From: an uncultured Eubacteriales bacterium
Lineage (GTDB): Bacteria; Bacillota; Clostridia; Christensenellales; Aristaeellaceae
DNA: 64,000 nt
Direction: 5' to 3'
Assembly (NCBI GenBank): GCA_902799045.1
Contig: CADBZH010000010.1
Span: forward strand, 1 to 64,000
This document shows positions 1 to 9,057 of this stretch, piece by piece. A program made the position numbers and the translations under genes. Numbering within the stretch: the stretch's first letter is position 1; each line of letters starts with the position of its first letter. A model generated the notes under the pieces. That model had not been told where the DNA came from. It searched no databases and saw only the letters and a list, made by a program, of their open reading frames with translations.

Positions 1-72
1 AAAGAGATCGTCATCCTCAACCCGAACACACTCAAGCGGGAGGTCATTCCCGCAAGAACAAGTGAACAATAA
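1..72 (+). CDS. C-terminal end of an unidentified protein (cut by window start)
   Basis: An open frame enters from the left edge and stops at TAA 70-72. Only 23 residues remain, ending in IPARTSEQ, which is too little to name a family. It is on the same strand as the phosphatase cluster but is separated from it by about 290 bases with their own promoter, so it is probably a separate transcription unit. Confidence 0.45.
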   Translation, partial: KEIVILNPNTLKREVIPARTSEQ

Positions 73-363
73 CCGGATGCGCACGCAGAATCCTGCGTGT
101 CCTCTCGATCCGCCAGACTTTTTGTGATGGGCTTCTGAGTTTACAGAACATTTTGTGCAAGGCCGTGATTCAAGTAGACTTTGAGCGCTAATTATGATAT
201 AATGATATTCAGGTTAGTGTAACATTGAAATAAGCGTTTTTGGGACATATTCAGATCAAACTGATTCCGAAAATGCGGCACCCAAAGTCTACCCCATGTA
301 ACAAGATGCATATATATTTTCGTTGTCTCGTTGATTATGAATAAGAGGTGACACTGGGAAGAA
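73..363. other. AT-rich intergenic region ahead of the phosphatase/kinase cluster
   Basis: No convincing gene. It holds a short inverted repeat (ACGCAG 83-88 with CTGCGT 93-98, no T-run after it), a good extended -10 promoter, and a long AT-rich leader of about 150 bases before the phosphatase gene. It is clearly more AT-rich than the genes further right in the window. Confidence 0.6.
175..203 (+). promoter_or_regulatory. Candidate promoter of the phosphatase/kinase/vWA cluster
   Basis: A perfect TATAAT at 198-203 preceded by TGA gives an extended -10 box. The hexamer 17 bases upstream (TAGACT, 175-180) matches TTGACA at four positions. The first gene starts about 160 bases downstream, leaving room for a long 5' leader. 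Confidence 0.55.
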
Positions 364-1428
364 ATGCGTATAAAGGATTTAGGAACACAATTGAACAAAT
401 GGCTGCGTCCAATACCAACAACGCAAAAAGCAATAATTCAAGAGCCCATGGAGACGCAGACACTGTCAAAGGATCAAAACAGGCTCTGTGAGATTCTCAA
501 TGAAATGCCGATTATTGATGATGCGCGGACGCTGGTTATCTGCCAAGCAAGAAGCGAGGGTTATGGTGAGGATTCCTGCCTTTCACTGCGGCACGAGGGA
601 AGAATCTTTCTTGGAGCATTTGACGGCTGTGGGGGCAGTGGCGCCAAAGTATATCCTTCCTTCGGAGGGCATACCGGGGCGTGGGCCGCCTCGCGCGCTG
701 CATCGCTGGCCGCGCGGGATTGGTTCCTGGAAAGTGATGAAAATGAGGCCTTTGCCGCGCAGGTTAATCGCGCTCTCCAGTTGTGCAGGGATCAGGAGCC
801 CGATGGGCAAATTCTGATGGGCAGCCTGAGCCGGGAATTTCCCACGACTATTGCCGCCTTTGTCAAGTCTGTGGATTCAGATGTAGTGACCTTCTTCTGG
901 TGCGGGGATTCACGCTGCTATATGCTGGATGCCGACGGTTTGCATCAAATAACCCCGGATGATACGGATATCAAAGACGCTATGCGCAGTTTGCGTGAAG
1001 ATGCGCCGATGACCAATGTGGCCTGTGCATCTAGGGGGTTTGAAGTACATCACGCCAGCCTGCGGATTGAGAAGCCGTCGTTGGTTTTTGCCGCGACGGA
1101 CGGATGCTTTGGCTATCTGACCTCCCCAATGTCCTTTGAACGGCTGCTGTTGGAAACGATGAGCCGTGCAAATGACATGAGAGTTTGGAAGAAAAAGTTG
1201 AACGAGCAGTTCAACGCTATCTCCGGGGACGATTATACGCTGGCTGCCTGGATGCACGGTTTCGACTCCTTTAGGGAAATGAAGAAAGCGCTCACCATTC
1301 GGCTTGATTACCTGAACGCGCATTATCCCGCTGATACTACCGACGAAGAAGCGCTGTTCGTCCAATGGGACCGATATAGAGCCAGTTATGAGAGCATGAT
1401 GATCGACTTAAGCATTGAAAGAGGCTGA
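364..1428 (+). CDS. PP2C-like serine/threonine protein phosphatase
   Basis: 354 residues. It carries the ordered PP2C acidic motifs: GED near residues 68-70, FDGCGG at 86-91 (canonical DGHGG, with His replaced by Cys), GDSR at 181-184, TDGC at 245-248 and GDDYT at 288-292. These Asp residues normally hold the two catalytic metals that hydrolyse phospho-Ser/Thr, so activity is likely. No signal peptide or membrane segment is seen, so it should be cytoplasmic. The first 60 residues have no recognisable domain. ATG 364 follows AGAGGTG at a slightly long distance; ATG 448 is an alternative start. It is first gene of the cluster, 2 bases before the kinase, and probably reverses its phosphorylation. 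Its GC content is lower than that of most genes in the window. Confidence 0.88.
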   Translation: MRIKDLGTQLNKWLRPIPTTQKAIIQEPMETQTLSKDQNRLCEILNEMPIIDDARTLVICQARSEGYGEDSCLSLRHEGRIFLGAFDGCGGSGAKVYPSFGGHTGAWAASRAASLAARDWFLESDENEAFAAQVNRALQLCRDQEPDGQILMGSLSREFPTTIAAFVKSVDSDVVTFFWCGDSRCYMLDADGLHQITPDDTDIKDAMRSLREDAPMTNVACASRGFEVHHASLRIEKPSLVFAATDGCFGYLTSPMSFERLLLETMSRANDMRVWKKKLNEQFNAISGDDYTLAAWMHGFDSFREMKKALTIRLDYLNAHYPADTTDEEALFVQWDRYRASYESMMIDLSIERG

Positions 1429-1430
1429 AC

Positions 1431-2345
1431 ATGAGAGAAATCAACGGATACATACTCGCCGGCGAACTAAAGACAACCAACAGCGGCTTTTCCAAATGGG
1501 GTTTCGCAGAAAAGGGTGGCAAAAAGGTTTTCATCAAGGAATTGATCGACCCGGTCTATCCCGTGGATGCAGGGCTGCTGAGCCCAGAGGTTTTGGCTCA
1601 CAAACGGGAACTATGCCGGCAATTTGAGGATAAAAGCAAGCTGCTTTACCGCTCCATCAACGATTGCTCTGACGGCAACCTGGTGTATATCGAGGACTTC
1701 TTCCGATGCGGCAGTCACTATTATCTGGTGATGGAAAAAGTGGATGCCATTGGCATAAACGAGGTGAAGCGCATCACCGAGGAGGACAAGCTGCGCGTGT
1801 GCAAGGCGCTTGTGCATTGCCTGGGCGGCATGCACAAGGCGGGCATCGTTCACGCCGATATCAAGCTGGACAACATATTGTTCCGCCGCCTGCCGTCGGG
1901 TAAAGTGACAGGCAAGTTGATCGATTTTGATAACTGCTTCTGGGAAAAGCTGCCGCCGCGCCCGGACGAGGAGGTACACGGCGACTTGGTGTATATGGCT
2001 CCGGAGACTTTTATAATGATGCAGACGGAGGAGGGCACGATCGGCCGATCCATCGACGTGTTCGCACTGGGCATCGTGTTCCACCAGATTTTCACCGGCC
2101 GGACGCCCGCATTCGACACGGAAAAGTACGGCTATCCCTTTGAGGCGGTGCTGGATGGCGCGGAGCTGGGTGTGGCAGCGGAGATCCCCGACGAGTGGCG
2201 GGAGCTGATAGCCCGGATGCTGAAGGCGAACCCGGCGGAGCGCATCGGCCTGGATGCTGCGGAGAGCGTGCTGAAGGGCACGGCGAACGCCGCCGAAAGC
2301 GAGACGGTTGAAACGTATCTCATGCCCGCGGGCGATTTGATATAA
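1431..2345 (+). CDS. Eukaryotic-type serine/threonine protein kinase
   Basis: 304 residues spanning a compact kinase domain with no transmembrane or extracellular sensor part. Visible landmarks are the ATP-binding Lys in FIKEL near residue 36, the catalytic loop HADIKLDN at 141-148 (HxDxKxxN, a variant of HRDLKPEN), the metal-binding Asp as DFD at 165-167 rather than DFG, and MAPET at 189-193. The glycine loop is poorly defined. It sits between the PP2C phosphatase (2-base gap) and the vWA protein (27 bases), so the three probably form one phospho-switch. Unlike PrkC/StkP it has no PASTA repeats, so it must receive its signal from a partner protein. Confidence 0.9.
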   Translation: MREINGYILAGELKTTNSGFSKWGFAEKGGKKVFIKELIDPVYPVDAGLLSPEVLAHKRELCRQFEDKSKLLYRSINDCSDGNLVYIEDFFRCGSHYYLVMEKVDAIGINEVKRITEEDKLRVCKALVHCLGGMHKAGIVHADIKLDNILFRRLPSGKVTGKLIDFDNCFWEKLPPRPDEEVHGDLVYMAPETFIMMQTEEGTIGRSIDVFALGIVFHQIFTGRTPAFDTEKYGYPFEAVLDGAELGVAAEIPDEWRELIARMLKANPAERIGLDAAESVLKGTANAAESETVETYLMPAGDLI

Positions 2346-2372
2346 CGACCAAGCATACAGGAGGAAAGAAAC

Positions 2373-3050
2373 ATGGCACTGAAGATGACTTACAACGTGG
2401 ATATGTGCTTCTGCATCGACGCGACAGGCAGCATGGGCCCCGTCATCTCCAAGGTGAAGGAAAACGCCCTGTCTTTTTACAAGGACGTGACCGAGGAGAT
2501 GGCGCGCAAGCAGAAGAGCCTGGACAACATGCGGGTGCGCGTGATCGTGTTCCGCGACTACGTGGCCGATGAGCAACCGATGATGGTCAGCAAGTTTTTC
2601 GATCTGCCCGCTCAGGCCGCGCAGTTTGAGGCCGCGATCAACAGCATCGAGGCCAAGGGTGGCGGCGACGAGCCAGAGGACGGCCTGGAGGCGCTGGCCT
2701 ACGCCATTCGCTCCGACTGGACCAAGGAGGGCACCAAGCGGCGAAACGTCATCGTGGTCTGGACGGACGCCTCCACCCATGAGATCGGCTACGCCAAGGA
2801 TCAGCTCAAGTATCCCAAGGGCATGCCCAGGGATTTCAACGAGTTAACCCAGTGGTGGGGCGACAGCCAGATGGAGCCCTACATCAAGAATGCCGCCAAG
2901 CGCTTGGTGCTGTTCGCACCGAACGCTCCGTACTGGCAGCAGATCACTTCTACCTGGAACAACGTCATACACTATCCGTCCACGGCGGGAAAAGGCCTGG
3001 CGGAGTACACCTACAAGGAGATCGTCGACGCGATCTGCAACAGCATTTGA
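2373..3050 (+). CDS. von Willebrand factor A domain protein (TerY-like partner)
   Basis: 225 residues, almost entirely one vWA fold. The metal-ion-dependent adhesion site begins as DATGS at residues 16-20 (DxSxS with Thr at the middle position), followed by GGGDEPEDG at 97-104 and TDAS at 131-134. Such domains bind a metal and hold protein partners together. There is no signal peptide or membrane helix. ATG 2373 has a perfect AGGAGG. Phosphatase, kinase and vWA protein in consecutive order resembles the TerY-P triad described for Ter stress systems; here I infer a scaffold or substrate-presenting role for the downstream zinc-ribbon proteins. Confidence 0.85.
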   Translation: MALKMTYNVDMCFCIDATGSMGPVISKVKENALSFYKDVTEEMARKQKSLDNMRVRVIVFRDYVADEQPMMVSKFFDLPAQAAQFEAAINSIEAKGGGDEPEDGLEALAYAIRSDWTKEGTKRRNVIVVWTDASTHEIGYAKDQLKYPKGMPRDFNELTQWWGDSQMEPYIKNAAKRLVLFAPNAPYWQQITSTWNNVIHYPSTAGKGLAEYTYKEIVDAICNSI

Positions 3051-3063
3051 GGAGGGGATAGCT

Positions 3064-3375
3064 ATGTTCTGTAAAAAGTGTGGAACGCAACTGAGGACGG
3101 GAGCAAAGTTCTGTGCCAAATGCGGCGCGCCCGCGCCGACAGCGGTTGCCGCGGCGACGCCTCCCGCCAAGTCCGTCGAATCGACGAAGCCTTCGACGCC
3201 CGTCGAGGAGGTCAAGACGCTACTGACGCGGGATGATTCTGGAAAGTCCGTCATCTACGTGCCGCCGACGGAGGCGGTGGAGGCTCCGAAGCTGGTCGTC
3301 ACGATGGGAGAGACGAAATCCAGCAGCTCCAACGGACAATTTGACGAGTGGTTCTCTGACCCTGGCGACTTGTAA
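3064..3375 (+). CDS. Small soluble zinc-ribbon protein
   Basis: 103 residues. The N-terminus is a zinc ribbon with cysteines at 3, 6, 17 and 20 (CxxCG then FCAKCGA). The rest is low-complexity and rich in Ala, Pro, Thr, Glu and Ser, with an acidic tail ending near DEWFSDPGDL. No membrane segment. ATG 3064 was chosen because AGGAGGGG ends a few bases before it; the same frame is open further upstream but inside the vWA gene. The Ser/Thr-rich tail would be a natural kinase target, which is an inference. It is the first of four zinc-ribbon genes in a row. Confidence 0.8.
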   Translation: MFCKKCGTQLRTGAKFCAKCGAPAPTAVAAATPPAKSVESTKPSTPVEEVKTLLTRDDSGKSVIYVPPTEAVEAPKLVVTMGETKSSSSNGQFDEWFSDPGDL

Positions 3376-3386
3376 AGGAGATACTT

Positions 3387-3980
3387 ATGAATACCAACAG
3401 CTATGATATGCCGATGAAATGGCACAAGTTTCTCATCTATTTCAGCCTGTGGGCCGGCGCGATCTTATGCGTTGCCAGTGCCATACAGCTGTTGACCGGC
3501 AGCATCTATGGCGCCGATGGCACCGCCGAACAGGTGTATCGGGTCTACGGAGGCTTAAAATCTGTGGACAGCATCTTCGGCGTGCTCTACCTTATCACCG
3601 CTGCGCTGCTCATCTATGTGCGTTTCCAGCTGGCCGGTTTCAAAGAAGGCGCGCCCAATAAGCTGACCATCGCCTATGTGGTTCAGCTTGCCGCTTTCCT
3701 GGGGTACATGATCGCAGTATCCAGCACGATCAAAAGACCCATCGGCGATCTGGCGAATTCGCAGACGCTCACCTCCATCGTATCAAGCGTCGTGATGATC
3801 ATCGTAAACAGGATTTATTACAACAAGCGGGCGCATCTCTTTGGGAATGCCGCTGCGGTATCCGGTGCGCCTCACGCGGCATCTTCGGGCGTTTCCAATG
3901 GCTTTTGCCCAATGTGTGGAGCGAAAGTGGAACCGGATGATGCCTTCTGTGTCAACTGTGGCGCAAAGATCAAGGAATGA
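3387..3980 (+). CDS. Multi-pass membrane protein with C-terminal zinc ribbon
   Basis: 197 residues with about four predicted membrane helices (roughly residues 12-34, 58-79, 91-110 and 125-142) and a cytoplasmic zinc ribbon at the C-terminus (CPMCG ... FCVNCGAK). The ribbon is nearly identical to those of the next two genes, pointing to a module copied within the cluster. A good AAGGAGA site precedes ATG 3387. No enzyme motif is visible. A membrane receiver or anchor for the kinase/phosphatase trio is plausible but not shown. Confidence 0.8.
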   Translation: MNTNSYDMPMKWHKFLIYFSLWAGAILCVASAIQLLTGSIYGADGTAEQVYRVYGGLKSVDSIFGVLYLITAALLIYVRFQLAGFKEGAPNKLTIAYVVQLAAFLGYMIAVSSTIKRPIGDLANSQTLTSIVSSVVMIIVNRIYYNKRAHLFGNAAAVSGAPHAASSGVSNGFCPMCGAKVEPDDAFCVNCGAKIKE

Positions 3981-4001
3981 TGTTTGAGGGAGGATCTTTA
4001 C

Positions 4002-4418
4002 ATGATCCCTGTATTTTTCCGGCGCTATAAAAAGGCCCCGCTTGCCACTTGTGTCAGTTTCATGGCAACGTTTTGCTTCATTATCGCGCTCTTCTTTTCA
4101 GTGGGCTATGTATTCAACTGGGAGGGCATGCGCAGCGAAAACGACTCGCTGGGCGAAAGCCTGCTCGTCGCGGCGGTCTTTGCGGTCGTGGGCATCGCCC
4201 TTTGGAAACTGGCGGCTTGGCTGGCTCAGCGCAAGTATGATAAGATGCGAGCTACTGCCACACCTGCGGCGACCGCGTCAGCGACTTACGTCGCCTCTTC
4301 GGCGGCGACCTCGACGGACGCACGTCCAGCGGCGACAAGGGGTGGCTTTTGCCCCAAGTGCGGCACGAAGGTTGAGCCTGGAGATGCATTCTGCGTGAAC
4401 TGCGGCGCGAAGCTATAA
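4002..4418 (+). CDS. Two-pass membrane protein with C-terminal zinc ribbon
   Basis: 138 residues, two hydrophobic helices (about 14-38 and 50-72), an Ala/Thr-rich linker and a C-terminal zinc ribbon (CPKCG ... FCVNCGAK). Start ATG 4002 follows GAGGGAGGA with good spacing; an in-frame TTG at 3984 lies within that binding site and is less likely. It begins 21 bases after the preceding membrane/zinc-ribbon gene and resembles it in architecture, but the membrane part has a different sequence. No known family is recognised. Confidence 0.78.
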   Translation: MIPVFFRRYKKAPLATCVSFMATFCFIIALFFSVGYVFNWEGMRSENDSLGESLLVAAVFAVVGIALWKLAAWLAQRKYDKMRATATPAATASATYVASSAATSTDARPAATRGGFCPKCGTKVEPGDAFCVNCGAKL

Positions 4419-4432
4419 CGGAGGCGACATCC

Positions 4433-5554
4433 ATGAGCGATTTTCGCATGAGCGGCGGCTATTGCCCCAACTGTGGCAAAAAGACGGAGCTTGGCGATGC
4501 CTTTTGTGTGAACTGCGGCGCAAAGCTGACCTTTTCGGACAGCAGCGCACCCGGAGGAGACTCTACACCGACCGCTTTCGACGGTAGGGCAGCCTCTGCC
4601 CCCTCGGCGGAAAGCCCGAAAAAGAAGCCGGGGCCGATCAACAGGCTGCTCTCCGTTGCGCTGATTGCCGTCTTCATCTGGGCGGTCGTCTCTTGGATCG
4701 GCGACAATTTTGTCGGCGAAGGTTATACGGACTACGCTTCCGCCGGAAAAGCCGCCGCGACCCAAATGGTCGACCACAAATCCCCGGTCATCGTTGCCTT
4801 CAACGTAGACGGCTTTAAGGGAGAACTGTCCCCCTACAAGGCCGGAGAGACCAAGCTCGCGTTGAACCTCCTGTCGGACGACGTCATGATGAAGATGCAG
4901 AAGGCGTCCTTCACCTATGACGGCGACCCACGCCACGGCGATCATCTCGCGCTGGTGTGCAGCCCCGTCGAACGCCGTAACTATCTGACCAAGCAGGGAA
5001 TCAGAGAGCTGCAGACCCTGAACCTGAGCATCAAGACCGAGTATTATACCACTGCCGAGCAGGATAAAGAGTTTGATACGGCTGTCAAAAAGGTGTTGGC
5101 GCAGCTGCGCGTCGACGGCATGTCCGACTACGAAAAAGTGCGCGCGATTTACAAGTACATCTGCTCGAATGTGACCTATGATGAAGCGCACTTGAACGAC
5201 GACGGCTATACGCTGAAATACACCGGCTATGCGGCGCTGAAGAATCACACGGCAGTTTGCGCCGGCGTCGCAGACCTGTTCTATTACATGGCGAACACCG
5301 CCGGGCTGGAGGCGCGCGTGGTGACCAGTTCGACCCACGCCTGGAACTTTGTCAAGCTGGGCGGCAAGTGTTACTACCTTGACGCGACCTGGGATCTGGG
5401 CAAAGGCGAAACCGAATACCAGTTTTTCCTAAAGGGCAAGTATGATTTCAATCACTTTGTCAAATACAACCTGAGCTTGTTTGGCTTTGGCAATCAACTG
5501 ACCGATACCGACAAGGGTTATACATTCAGCGACTATGCTTATGGAAGGCTCTGA
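4433..5554 (+). CDS. Zinc-ribbon, membrane-anchored transglutaminase-like protein
   Basis: 373 residues. An N-terminal cytoplasmic zinc ribbon (CPNCG ... FCVNCGAK, residues 11-31) is followed by a linker, one membrane helix (about 72-95) and a probably extracytoplasmic domain. Its C-terminal half is a transglutaminase-like fold with the ordered catalytic triad: Cys in AVCAGVADL (about 276), His in STHAWNF (about 301) and Asp in YLDATWD (about 316). In bacteria such domains act as cysteine proteases or peptide cross-linkers, often at the cell wall. It is the most obvious enzymatic effector of the cluster, 14 bases after the previous gene. Confidence 0.85.
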   Translation: MSDFRMSGGYCPNCGKKTELGDAFCVNCGAKLTFSDSSAPGGDSTPTAFDGRAASAPSAESPKKKPGPINRLLSVALIAVFIWAVVSWIGDNFVGEGYTDYASAGKAAATQMVDHKSPVIVAFNVDGFKGELSPYKAGETKLALNLLSDDVMMKMQKASFTYDGDPRHGDHLALVCSPVERRNYLTKQGIRELQTLNLSIKTEYYTTAEQDKEFDTAVKKVLAQLRVDGMSDYEKVRAIYKYICSNVTYDEAHLNDDGYTLKYTGYAALKNHTAVCAGVADLFYYMANTAGLEARVVTSSTHAWNFVKLGGKCYYLDATWDLGKGETEYQFFLKGKYDFNHFVKYNLSLFGFGNQLTDTDKGYTFSDYAYGRL

Positions 5555-5636
5555 TGTCTCTGAGAGCTCTTTCTCAATACAAGAGCAGCGTGTGCTGAAC
5601 GACTGATCCAATATAGATCATACAGGAGTGGGAACT

Positions 5637-6974
5637 ATGAGCGAAGAGAACAAGCGCTGGCGCTGCCCGTACTGCGATGGGCTGAACGACTGGCAGAGCA
5701 CGGTCTGCGAAATCTGCGGCGACGGCAGGCGAGACGAGGCGGATGCCGCCGTAAAAACCCCATCGACGGCGGAAATGCCCAAAACCTATACGCCGCCGAA
5801 GCGCAGAGTCGAACCCGAAGCGCTCCGCCCCGAGCCAGTGAAGGAGAGTAGAACAGCCTACGCGCCGCCGCCCCCGCCTGCCTCGGAGCCGCCGAAGAAA
5901 AAGAAGAAGGGTGGGGTTTGGGTAGCGATCGTGATCGTTATTCTGGCCGCCCTGGGCGGCAGGCTCCTGGCCAACAGTTTCGTGGCCAGTGTGGAGAAGG
6001 ACAAGACTGACGAATTCGCTGTGCCAATCAGCGCGCCGGAGGCAACGCTGTCTGCTGGAGAAGCACCGAAGGCGACAGATGCGCCACAATCGGCAGAGGT
6101 TGAGGGGCAGGGTCAGACTGTGGCAGCGAGTAACGTGATTGCGCGGTTTGAAGTACCGGCGGAGCCGGTCGCGTCCATTGAATCCATCACCGACAACGGC
6201 GATGGAACCGCGCTGGTCAGGCTGCGGAGCAACGGATGTAGCCAGACCGATTTTGCGGTCTACAGTTATCTCCTCAATAGCCCGGAGGATAGTATTGCCG
6301 GATTCTGGTCTCTGGACGACGGCGCTATCCATCATAGGGAGGAATATCCGTACTCCTTGGCGAAGGCTGAAAACGGGGACTTGGGTTTCAGTGGGTCAAT
6401 TGATGATCCCGCATCCATACAGATTATTCCCGGGCACTGGATGCAGCTTGTCCTCACAGGATTGGGCGGTTTCAGAAACAGCGCCTATTGGATTTCAGAT
6501 CCGTTCTATATCCCGGCCAAAGAAAGCGCACCTGCGCTTCCCCTGCGGTTGATTGATGTTAAAATGGGAGCCTACGAAGGCATGCGATTGGAAGAAGGTG
6601 ACTTTGTCGAGCTTACCACGTCGCGGGCGTTGAACGACTTGTTGGACTCGAAGAAAGATGTGGAACTTGGCATGCGGTACAGGTTCCAGTCAGATTTCAG
6701 TAAGGAAACTCTTGATACGTGGCGGAGCGAGAATAACCATATGAAATGTTGCATGGTGCTCTACGCACCGGGCTTCTGCCAGATTGGAACGCGCTATTAC
6801 CTCACTCTGTCCTATGAGGACAACGGGGTTGTTTACATGGACACGCCTTCCATTCTCTCTAATTTCATAAAGAGTAAGCGGGAGGATGTCGGTGGCTATC
6901 CTGTGGGGCAATATACGCTGGAGGTTTATCTAGAAGGCGTCTCACTCGGCAGTTATAGCTTCACGCTGAGCTGA
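5637..6974 (+). CDS. RanBP2-type zinc-finger membrane protein, copy 1
   Basis: 445 residues from ATG 5637, which has CAGGAG 8 bases upstream; an in-frame GTG at 5628 overlaps that site and is disfavoured. The N-terminus is a RanBP2-like finger (WRCPYC, N, then CEICGDG), followed by a Pro/Glu-rich linker ending in a Lys cluster, one membrane helix at about 93-112 and a long extracytoplasmic part with no recognised family. The first 50 residues and the overall layout match the next gene closely, so the two are tandem paralogues. The extracytoplasmic parts have diverged far more than the finger. Confidence 0.8.
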   Translation: MSEENKRWRCPYCDGLNDWQSTVCEICGDGRRDEADAAVKTPSTAEMPKTYTPPKRRVEPEALRPEPVKESRTAYAPPPPPASEPPKKKKKGGVWVAIVIVILAALGGRLLANSFVASVEKDKTDEFAVPISAPEATLSAGEAPKATDAPQSAEVEGQGQTVAASNVIARFEVPAEPVASIESITDNGDGTALVRLRSNGCSQTDFAVYSYLLNSPEDSIAGFWSLDDGAIHHREEYPYSLAKAENGDLGFSGSIDDPASIQIIPGHWMQLVLTGLGGFRNSAYWISDPFYIPAKESAPALPLRLIDVKMGAYEGMRLEEGDFVELTTSRALNDLLDSKKDVELGMRYRFQSDFSKETLDTWRSENNHMKCCMVLYAPGFCQIGTRYYLTLSYEDNGVVYMDTPSILSNFIKSKREDVGGYPVGQYTLEVYLEGVSLGSYSFTLS

Positions 6975-7010
6975 CGGCGATTCGATTATAATGAGGGGTG
7001 AACCGCAATT

Positions 7011-8240
7011 ATGAGCGAAACGAATAAGCGCTGGCGTTGTCCATATTGCGACGGGCTGAACGACTGGCAGAATACGGTCTGCGAAATCTGCGGCGACGGC
7101 AGGCGAGACGAGGCGGTAGCCGCCGAAAAAACCGCAACAACGGCGGAAATGCCCAAAGTCTATATGCCCCGGGAGCACGAGGCGGAGCCTGCCGCGCCAA
7201 AGGGAGAGCCGGATCGCGAAGCGGCGAGGCCTACCTATACGCCGCCGCCTGTCCCGGAGCTCCCGAAGAAAAAGAAGAAGGGCGGCGTTTGGATAGCGAT
7301 GCTGGCCGCCGCGGTGGTGATGCTCGCGGGCGGTTATTTCCTGTTTGGCGAGCAGCTGGGACTGCGCGACAGTGGCAGCGGCTGGCACAGCGAGGTTCAG
7401 CTCGACGATTCCGATTTCGCCGCGGCGGACAGGATCTCCATCTCCGTGCGGGACGACGGCATGGGCAACGCGATCTTCCGCCTGCAGGATCGCGAGCCCA
7501 AGGATTACTACGACGTCTACGCCTGCTATGTCGGTGAAACGCCGGATCAGTTTAATCGCCCCTATAACCAGGGGGCGGCGAATCGGATAACGCTTCCCTG
7601 GGTCCACAGGATCTATGATTCCCTGGACGGCGAGATGTCGCGGCGCGTCGTGCCCGGCGGCTACAGCCGGTTTATCGTCCACGCCTATAACGATTCTGAA
7701 CGAGGTGTGTGGTGGCAGTCTGAGCCTTATTGGTTCTCTGAAAACGCCATGACGCTGCCCTTTTCCATCAACGACGCTCGACTATGCATGTGGAATACCG
7801 ATGAAGAGCGCATGAATTGGGAAGCTGTACAGATGAATCTGGCCGACCCGGGAAGCGCGAAAAGCCCGGCTCTTTACGCCTTGAACAGGGCTGAGATGCT
7901 GAACTCGACGCTGAAACTGGATCGGGTTCTCGGGTATTCGCTGTCCATCACGATGAATACCGATGCCAACGGCCTTTCCGCCTGGCAGAGCGAGCATTCC
8001 TGCTATGATCCAGCGCCTGTGGTGGCGCTTCTCAGAGGGCCGGACGATCTATGCGCGATGACAAACGGCTATCTCTATGCGGTTGATGGTTTGTATCAAG
8101 ATCAGTTTGTTAGCTTCGAACCTCTTACGGACAACTATCAGACGGTGAAAAAGTCCGGAGGCTACCCCGCGGGAGACTACAGCGTGGATTTCTACGTCTG
8201 GGGCGTCAAGGCGCTTACCCTGGGTTTCACCCTGACTTGA
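7011..8240 (+). CDS. RanBP2-type zinc-finger membrane protein, copy 2
   Basis: 409 residues, paralogue of the gene 36 bases upstream. It has the same finger (WRCPYC ... CEICGDG), a Pro/Glu/Ala linker, a LPKKKKKGGVW stretch leading into one membrane helix (about 94-113), and an extracytoplasmic region containing WQSEPYWFS and, near the end, SGGYPAGDYS, a motif also seen in copy 1 as VGGYPVGQYT. The shared end motif suggests a common beta-rich extracellular fold. Function unknown; membership of the phosphatase/kinase cluster rests on direction and spacing. GC is higher than in copy 1. Confidence 0.8.
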   Translation: MSETNKRWRCPYCDGLNDWQNTVCEICGDGRRDEAVAAEKTATTAEMPKVYMPREHEAEPAAPKGEPDREAARPTYTPPPVPELPKKKKKGGVWIAMLAAAVVMLAGGYFLFGEQLGLRDSGSGWHSEVQLDDSDFAAADRISISVRDDGMGNAIFRLQDREPKDYYDVYACYVGETPDQFNRPYNQGAANRITLPWVHRIYDSLDGEMSRRVVPGGYSRFIVHAYNDSERGVWWQSEPYWFSENAMTLPFSINDARLCMWNTDEERMNWEAVQMNLADPGSAKSPALYALNRAEMLNSTLKLDRVLGYSLSITMNTDANGLSAWQSEHSCYDPAPVVALLRGPDDLCAMTNGYLYAVDGLYQDQFVSFEPLTDNYQTVKKSGGYPAGDYSVDFYVWGVKALTLGFTLT

Positions 8241-8280
8241 CGGGGAGCCTACAGGAAAGCGCTTGTGAGAGGATGAGACA

Positions 8281-8345
8281 ATGCGTGAAATGAACAAAAG
8301 TGTCGTTGCCGTTCTGCGACAGCCTGAACGATCGGCATAATGATG
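8281..8345 (+). pseudogene. Decayed third copy of the RanBP2 zinc-finger gene
   Basis: The DNA from ATG 8281 aligns with the first 65 bases of the two preceding genes, including a binding site (AGAGGATG) just upstream. Two single-base losses break the frame, one in about codon 7 and one after the first CxxC half. Allowing for them gives C-R-C-R-F-C-D-S-L-N-D, clearly the finger of the intact copies (WRCPYCDGLND). Read literally it is a 19-residue frame ending at TAA 8340. Everything after the finger is gone; an IS200-type remnant follows. Confidence 0.7.
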
Positions 8346-8392
8346 AAAAAGCTCAATTATGCTTTTCGAAGCCGTGAAAACCACGGGTTTCT

Positions 8393-8420
8393 GACCCTTT
8401 TCGCATCGGGCTAAAGGGTC
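8393..8420. repeat. Hairpin at the presumed left end of an IS200-type remnant
   Basis: GACCCTTT (8393-8400) and AAAGGGTC (8413-8420) form a perfect 8-base stem with a 12-base loop. IS200/IS605 elements have hairpins near their ends that TnpA recognises, and the transposase remnant begins about 25 bases later, so this is probably the old left end. A second small stem (CCGTG/CACGG) lies just upstream. A terminator function is an alternative, but there is no T-run. Confidence 0.45.
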
Positions 8421-8438
8421 GAATAAAAGGATAACCAA

Positions 8439-8640
8439 ATAACGGACAAATTTACATAAGAGCAACCCCGCGATACGAGATGGAAATGCCAGTACCATAT
8501 TGTGTTTATTCCGAAATATCGGAGGAAAGTGCTGTATGGGAAAGTAAAGGCAGATATACGCGAGATACTGCCGTAGATCACGTACACTTGTGCCTGAGCA
8601 TACCACCGAAGATAATGGTATGGCAAGGGTAAAGATACGA
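8439..8640 (+). mobile_element. Remnant of an IS200/IS605-family tnpA (Y1 transposase)
   Basis: In the frame from 8445 the translation contains KCQYHIVFIPKYRRKVLYG, the signature N-terminal strand of IS200-type transposases, ending in REIL. A frame change and an apparent deletion follow, then DHVHLCLSIPPK from 8576, which includes the HxH of the metal-binding HUH site. The intact family has roughly 20 residues between these blocks. An in-frame stop lies near 8457 and the region with the catalytic Tyr is absent, so the element is dead. It sits directly behind the decayed zinc-finger copy. Confidence 0.8.
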
Positions 8641-8746
8641 ACTTTGCGAACGCGCACAAATCAGACGTTCGCCTGTAAAGCGGTACGTTCCGTCAGCGAA
8701 CAGCATCGAAAGAGAAAGAATGCAAGTCTCCTCTGTCTCATTCCCC

Positions 8747-9057
8747 GGGTTTCCGTGAAGAGCGCATTCGTCTTCAGGGGGAAGCGGGAATTGAACTCCC
8801 TCTGTCAGCCCTGCGGGCTGCCACCTCCCTCGGCGAGGGAGGCCAAATACCTACCATCGCAGCCCAAAGCTCCCGACGAGGCTCCCGTATAGGCTCCCGT
8901 CCCGGCTCCCTCTTTGAGGGAGCTGGCGCCGAAGGCGACTGAGGGAGTTGAGGGAGCTGGCGCCGAAGGCGACTGAGGGAGTTCGAGGGAGCTGGCGCCG
9001 AAGGCGACTGAGGGAGTTGAGGGAACTGTCCGGCCATCCGGATGGACCGAGGGAGGG
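8747..9057. repeat. Palindromic CTCCCTC repeat block with tandem 34-35 bp units
   Basis: A run of stem-loops built on CTCCCTC/GAGGGAG. From 8916 a 34-35 base unit (GAGGGAGCTGGCGCCGAAGG and on to GAGGGAGTT) occurs three times in a row (starts 8916, 8950, 8985), with a diverged fourth at 9019. Its first part, from GGGTTTCCGTGAAG through a palindrome ending near 8850, matches the repeat at 16004-16155. It lies just after the stop codon of the minus-strand esterase. Between 8640 and 8747 I see nothing recognisable. Confidence 0.8.

Follow-up and report, generated by a model that had tools for sequence, protein, structure and literature searches.

A shared AGDL-type tail and an integrin-beta-like vWA protein in a bacterial phosphatase-kinase-vWA locus with zinc-ribbon membrane proteins

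Triads of a PP2C phosphatase, a protein kinase and a von Willebrand factor A (vWA) protein are present in many bacteria, and in the accessible part of the literature on them the ligand of the vWA member is not established. The closest described system, TerY-P, consists of a vWA protein, a PP2C and a kinase with a zinc ribbon fused to its C-terminus, and is linked to restriction and DNA-processing systems, as far as the accessible part of the CoCoNuT paper goes (PMC11090510, which cites Anantharaman 2012). Here we describe a related triad in a 64,000-nucleotide stretch of DNA (the window) from an uncultured gut Eubacteriales bacterium, whose 2.9-Mb genome is assembled in 54 contigs. The locus occupies positions 364 to 8240 and, by open reading frames and Pfam matches, holds nine genes, all on the + strand, with short gaps and Shine-Dalgarno-like sequences: PP2C, kinase, vWA, three zinc-ribbon genes (ZR1, ZR2 and ZR3), a transglutaminase-like gene (TG) and two genes with RanBP2-like fingers (Ran1 and Ran2). 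An initial annotation of the same DNA had counted eight co-directional genes; the direction holds and the count is nine. The gene row is confirmed, and the locus is real and conserved.

With TerY-P, to the extent that its description is accessible, the locus shares three activities encoded side by side, a proposed phosphorylation switch that includes a vWA, and zinc ribbons. It differs in that the kinase bears an AGDL-type tail in place of a fused ribbon or OB fold, that the ribbons are on separate, mostly membrane proteins, and that no restriction or CoCoNuT genes are found among the few neighbours examined. The label TerY-P-like, given in the initial annotation, suits the content of the triad and not the kinase, which has no zinc ribbon of its own. 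We class the triad as TerY-P-like, set in new surroundings, and do not count it as TerY-P proper.

The kinase (1431–2345) and the non-homologous ZR1 (3064–3375) end alike, in YLMPAGDLI and WFSDPGDL, respectively. A first pattern for the tail was found in 17 of 478 called proteins, every one of them a kinase or zinc-ribbon protein of a triad locus. A wider pattern, composed after examples had been seen, matched 44 of 764 open reading frames on the triad strand near 23 triads and none of 900 on the opposite strand; two of the 44 matches look spurious. These triads belong to form A, one of three neighbourhood forms (A, B and C) that we distinguish. Form A comprises the window and loci L024–L034, L099–L109 and L079, with zinc-ribbon proteins beside the triad in nearly all of them (none were seen in L079); L034 and L106 are one locus, and L032 repeats part of the window. 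Elsewhere in form A, membrane proteins also bear the tail. At locus L103 the number of tailed proteins reaches seven when a regulator that looks TetR-like by eye, with its looser GNDL end, is included; the others are the kinase, four further membrane proteins and one leucine-rich repeat membrane protein. Two of the tailed membrane proteins there have a ribbon-like cysteine pattern between helices.

Seven of 12 triad genomes contained a strict 24-base DNA pattern, FxxAGD(L/F)-stop, at 16 places in total; its reversed control occurred nowhere. Fourteen of these places close frames of at least about 220 codons, and one is a contig-end fragment repeating a kinase tail. The last (L131, contig C72 of genome G698) lies off the triad contig, where a 72-codon frame ends in FRTAGDL behind a stretch that looks, by eye, like a helix-turn-helix. 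In 291 genomes of the class the pattern was found at 27 places in 23 genomes, and the reversed control at 7 places, so that off-triad occurrences are mostly background. Five genomes already known for the triad account for eight of the 27, and only one of the remaining 19, reading AGDF, closes a frame of at least 100 codons.

The vWA protein (2373–3050) matches VWA_4 with 46 bits (cut-off 27). When its profile was searched against the PDB, integrin beta accounted for 37 of 41 sequences among the matches listed, and the best 50 listed structures for its structure model were all integrin-type I domains, the fold being closest to integrin beta. Its metal site (DATGSM, GGGDEPEDG and WTDASTH) could be aligned to that of integrin beta-8 through the residues DxSxSM, DxPExG and TDxxxH, the DxSxSM piece being low-scoring alone; each metal site checked is retained in 24 to 28 of 28 sequences. 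A second, degenerate vWA copy at L109 (9872–10570) has lost the first Asp and one Ser of the site.

In integrin alphaIIb-beta3, the metal of the metal-ion-dependent adhesion site (MIDAS) binds the AGDV tail of fibrinogen gamma (KQAGDV), according to the accessible part of the source (PMC4813479). The integrin beta I-like domain is like the window vWA in metal-site signature and closest in fold, and the KQAGDV tail resembles the AGDL ends of the proteins that accompany the vWA. Unlike the integrin, the vWA protein is predicted to be intracellular and has no alpha subunit; identity is low, about 16%, and the likeness is known here from sequence and model. Another bacterial vWA protein, that of the CbbQ/CbbO Rubisco activase, recognises an Asp of its partner through its MIDAS (PMC5385338, accessible part), although there the vWA works with an AAA+ ATPase and here with a kinase and a phosphatase.

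In the partner proteins the fingers are conserved and the ectodomains have been exchanged. Among six Ran sequences, pairwise identity is 71–97% over the first 32 residues, the finger, and 12–30% in the ectodomain. From the kinase tail as far as the Ran1 helix, the DNA of the window and that of L032 are 99% identical, with 38 mismatches over 3635 bases, as against about 62% in PP2C (100-base blocks) and about 82% in most of the kinase; divergence begins at about 5930–5975, and the ectodomains have diverged. In Ran1 of this pair, a single nonsynonymous change and no synonymous one fall in the finger, and the ectodomain is near saturation. The proteins at the TG position of L026 and L027 likewise retain ribbon and helix and have a different ectodomain; the possible wall-acting transglutaminase/protease with which the initial annotation had the system end is one ectodomain among several. 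Conservation inside and variability outside would fit receptors under diversifying pressure, whether phage, neighbours or ligands of the envelope exert it.

Another motif, (R/K)(L/I/V)x(S/T)T(M/F), picked after examples had been seen, is present in 13 of 362 proteins near form-A and form-B triads and in none of 195 more distant proteins of those loci. It lies in the linkers of four form-A proteins and at the C-termini of eight form-B proteins, the other match (L043:5688) being in an unrelated-looking protein, and is a candidate phosphorylation site. Form B comprises ten loci (L035–L044) of the window's family, with the full triad called in eight and a divergently transcribed two-helix protein. 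Nine of the ten two-helix proteins end in an (I/V)(R/K/V)STM-type or close sequence, followed by a few mostly basic residues; that of L037 runs off the contig, and L042 also has a ribbon pattern. No ribbon array stands directly behind the triad in these ten loci. Most of their kinases end near NGLSRFMKK in place of AGDL.

We tentatively picture the locus, with slightly less than even confidence, as a modular unit in which a soluble phospho-switch serves membrane partners, the tail is a docking tag and the vWA its likely receptor. The soluble core (PP2C, kinase and vWA) would read and mark partner proteins, most of which are predicted to span the membrane and to offer the cytosol either a zinc ribbon or finger or a C-terminal AGDL-type tail. 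Among the non-core membrane proteins of the operons at 22 loci, 51 of 68 have a ribbon, finger or tail, as against 7 of 57 elsewhere in the same loci. Their varied ectodomains, apparently transglutaminase-like or beta-rich here and leucine-rich or tetratricopeptide repeats in relatives, may sense envelope events, the signal passing in or out. The vWA is favoured as the reader of the tail because of the integrin parallel: its MIDAS metal would hold the acidic tail residue, as beta3 holds AGDV. Docking would gather the kinase and the partners, and kinase and PP2C would set partner phosphorylation, possibly at the (R/K)(L/I)xSTM-type motif in some partner linkers. The fuller proposal, that an intracellular integrin-beta-like vWA reads an AGDL tag marking kinase, regulator and receptors as one complex, with ectodomains exchanged by recombination, we regard as possible and somewhat doubtful. 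Overall, the data suggest an undescribed bacterial signalling hub. The membrane-linked phospho-switch proposed in the initial annotation is still the best reading; the tail, the integrin-beta-like vWA and the exchange of ectodomains had gone unnoticed there.

Several observations weigh against this picture. The single vWA sequence, used as a query against the PDB, found no match, and the PDB over-represents integrins. The metal site is also intact in the vWA proteins of the form-B loci, which have no AGDL tails; thus, the site by itself does not predict tails. The tail Asp is not absolute: the residue before the final Leu or Ile is Asp in 19 of 22 form-A kinases and Asn, Glu and Ser in one each (L108 is outside this count, no kinase being called there and a tailed one lying on another contig of its genome), ZR1 of L026 and L028 has Asn, and some tails have one extra residue. 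In the window, two of nine proteins bear the tail, and neither ribbon nor tail is found in 17 of the 68 operon membrane proteins. The strict pattern is missing from 5 of 12 triad genomes, including the window's own, where it fails because the tails read LMPAGDLI and FSDPGDL. Kinase tails and partner tails covary weakly (P 0.038 over 15 loci, uncorrected for kinship). In an AlphaFold model of a tail tethered to the vWA, a weak test in that only 3 of 34 alignment rows held tail and vWA together, the tail was disordered and did not dock, its first two ten-residue blocks having a mean predicted local distance difference test (pLDDT) score of 35 and 36.

The undocked model and the Asn, Glu or Ser in some tails would be expected if the docking tag were received by PP2C, which is nearly as constant as the vWA across loci, by the kinase domain or by another protein, the vWA only assembling the complex. 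We consider this unlikely, though deserving of serious weight, since an integrin-beta-like vWA and an AGDV-like tail would then be a rather specific coincidence. A degron or processing signal that sets protein turnover would also account for a C-terminal, hydrophobic-ended element on linkers of unrelated proteins. Such a signal for a protease should, however, be more widespread, whereas the tail is found only at triad loci or in triad-kinase fragments, the short L131 excepted, and an extra residue after the Leu is tolerated; we find this explanation improbable. That an independent triad has zinc-ribbon genes beside it by chance could be argued from the form-B loci with no array behind the triad. 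It is scarcely credible given the recurrence in many genera, the tail shared by kinase and ZR1, and the clustering of ribbons, with 4 of the 10 Zn_Ribbon_1 matches in the 2.9-Mb genome falling within a 1.5-kb stretch here, and we reject it. The triad adjoins zinc-ribbon membrane proteins in several bacterial families, many genera and independent genomes, which bears out the link between the two halves drawn in the initial annotation; the finding that was to overturn it there, ribbon homologues nowhere beside the triad, is not what these genomes show.

A stress or defence module of the TerY-P type, with the ribbons as sensors of metal or nucleic acid, the triad as the switch of a response and no special tail chemistry, is rather unlikely. 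The three activities are as in TerY-P (PMC11090510, accessible part), and HerA-like ATPases are found in two form-C loci of the window's family (L047 and L049). Nevertheless, the kinase has no fused ribbon, and most of the ribbons belong to membrane proteins that have ectodomains. TerD, which the initial annotation listed as missing here along with TerB, TerC and TerZ, is absent from the window's own genome and was found in 1 of 20 triad genomes (TerB, TerC and TerZ were not searched for); a Ter operon is not supported. A genome with two vWA matches has five TerD-family matches on another contig (G058:C167). A defence context was not seen either: ten flanking proteins from seven loci had no PADLOC match at 1e-5. 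In PADLOC 2023 the kinase matches many kinase models, mad6 best, and neither the PP2C and vWA nor those of related triads match any; the library may be without models for such triads.

A phage origin finds no backing. Viral contigs were scanned by pattern, a method limited to close relatives, and no match was confirmed; in PHROGs the matches were confined to generic kinase families and families of unknown function. Among phage records there was one full-length match (L079), besides two partial ones at 28%. L079 (MT836186.1), a 'Bacteriophage sp.' scaffold of 12 kb from human faeces that has no annotation, carries PP2C, kinase and vWA and may be bacterial DNA.

A locus-specific tail on unrelated proteins, together with an integrin-beta-like vWA, makes for a concrete and cheap test of what a vWA of this kind binds. 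If the proposal is true, a peptide-tag code would assemble a bacterial signalling complex by the chemistry of fibrinogen on the platelet integrin, and clients of such systems could be named directly from sequence. Among the hits listed in a literature search, no title or abstract dealt with the tail or the array; most subscription papers were beyond its reach, so that absence is unproven.

At E ≤ 1e-8, genome searches turned up the vWA in 15 of the 150 family genomes and 24 of the 297 order genomes sampled. At E ≤ 1e-20 the class yielded 14 of 391, and at E ≤ 1e-40, when a relative served as query, the phylum yielded 1 of 398, the window's own genome; the draws overlap, and the window's genome is in every count. 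Eleven loci come from named species genomes, two titled Mediterraneibacter and one Blautia. Form C (L045–L049 and L110–L118) varies more; its kinases are often larger and its vWA is often duplicated. Homologues with 42–44% identity are on Herpetosiphon and Calothrix plasmids, with a kinase and a PP2C-like protein. As to membership of the vWA in the TerY family, a tblastn of plasmids gave 17 records, none of them enterobacterial. The gene caller misses some genes: ZR1 of L025 and L031, PP2C of L043 and, although the genome search had detected it, vWA of L114. At L033 (10703–14060), two membrane proteins right behind the vWA begin with an FHA-like domain, the first by Pfam (FHA and leucine-rich repeats) and the second by sequence similarity; they are possible readers of phospho-threonine.

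The enzymes of the core look intact. PP2C (364–1428, alternative start 448) matches PF13672 with 42 bits (cut-off 24) and has the DGxGG, GDSR, TDG and DDxT motifs. The kinase, of 304 residues, matches PF00069 with 89 bits (cut-off 31.7) and has HADIKLDN and DFD (HxD..N and DFD intact); a Pfam scan (E 0.5) found no second domain, fused ribbon, OB fold or sensor domain in it. The identity of the first three genes and the missing sensor had both been read correctly in the initial annotation. PASTA-type PknB/PrkC kinases and their PP2C are likewise an envelope-linked pair. Here, in contrast, receptor and kinase are separate proteins, and the Pfam scan found no PASTA domain in the nine.

Zn_Ribbon_1 (cut-off 25) is passed by ZR1, ZR2, ZR3 and TG. 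ZR1 (35 bits) is soluble, with an N-terminal ribbon and a long linker containing KLVVTMG; ZR2 (3387–3980) and ZR3 (3984–4418, probable start 4002) are membrane proteins with C-terminal ribbons. TG (4433–5554) has an N-terminal ribbon, one membrane helix and a Transglut_core ectodomain (PF01841, 43.7 bits, cut-off 23), with Cys, His and Asp of the catalytic triad present by eye. Ran1 (5628–6974, probable start 5637) and its paralogue Ran2 (7011–8240) consist of a RanBP2-like finger, a lysine-rich stretch, a helix and an ectodomain. No zinc-finger model matched either above its cut-off; the label comes from W-x-C-x2-C...N...C-x2-C, which we take to be the RanBP2-type consensus and whose residues are invariant in six aligned sequences including both. 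The ectodomain of Ran2 is beta-rich, with fibronectin type III-like structure matches that are a hint only, the model being weak (pLDDT 58). These domains agree with the mostly membrane-bound ribbon and finger proteins of the initial annotation. TG, Ran1 and Ran2 each have a charged stretch ahead of their one helix, which by the positive-inside rule would put their fingers in the cytosol.

The genes are likely a single transcription unit, judging from their spacing. The window begins with the first base of its contig (C10), and anything 5′ of PP2C beyond that is out of view. A promoter-like candidate lies at 175–203 on the + strand (10 of 12 positions, TG before the -10); in 1–8900, promoter-like sites numbered 6 against 4.6 expected from shuffles, and terminator-like sites were near the shuffle level with 12 against 9.3. 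Outside the window, the same genome has a second signalling operon (L050, G000:C26:2000-21900) with a kinase and two PP2C, in which no vWA was seen. Its other products are a 1668-residue kinase–leucine-rich repeat protein, for which a single membrane helix is predicted, an FHA protein, and a PrsW-protease/FHA membrane protein whose ribbon-like N-terminus scores below the Pfam cut-off. Just 3′ of the array, at 8480–8580, the beginning of a degraded IS200-like transposase frame can be made out by eye.

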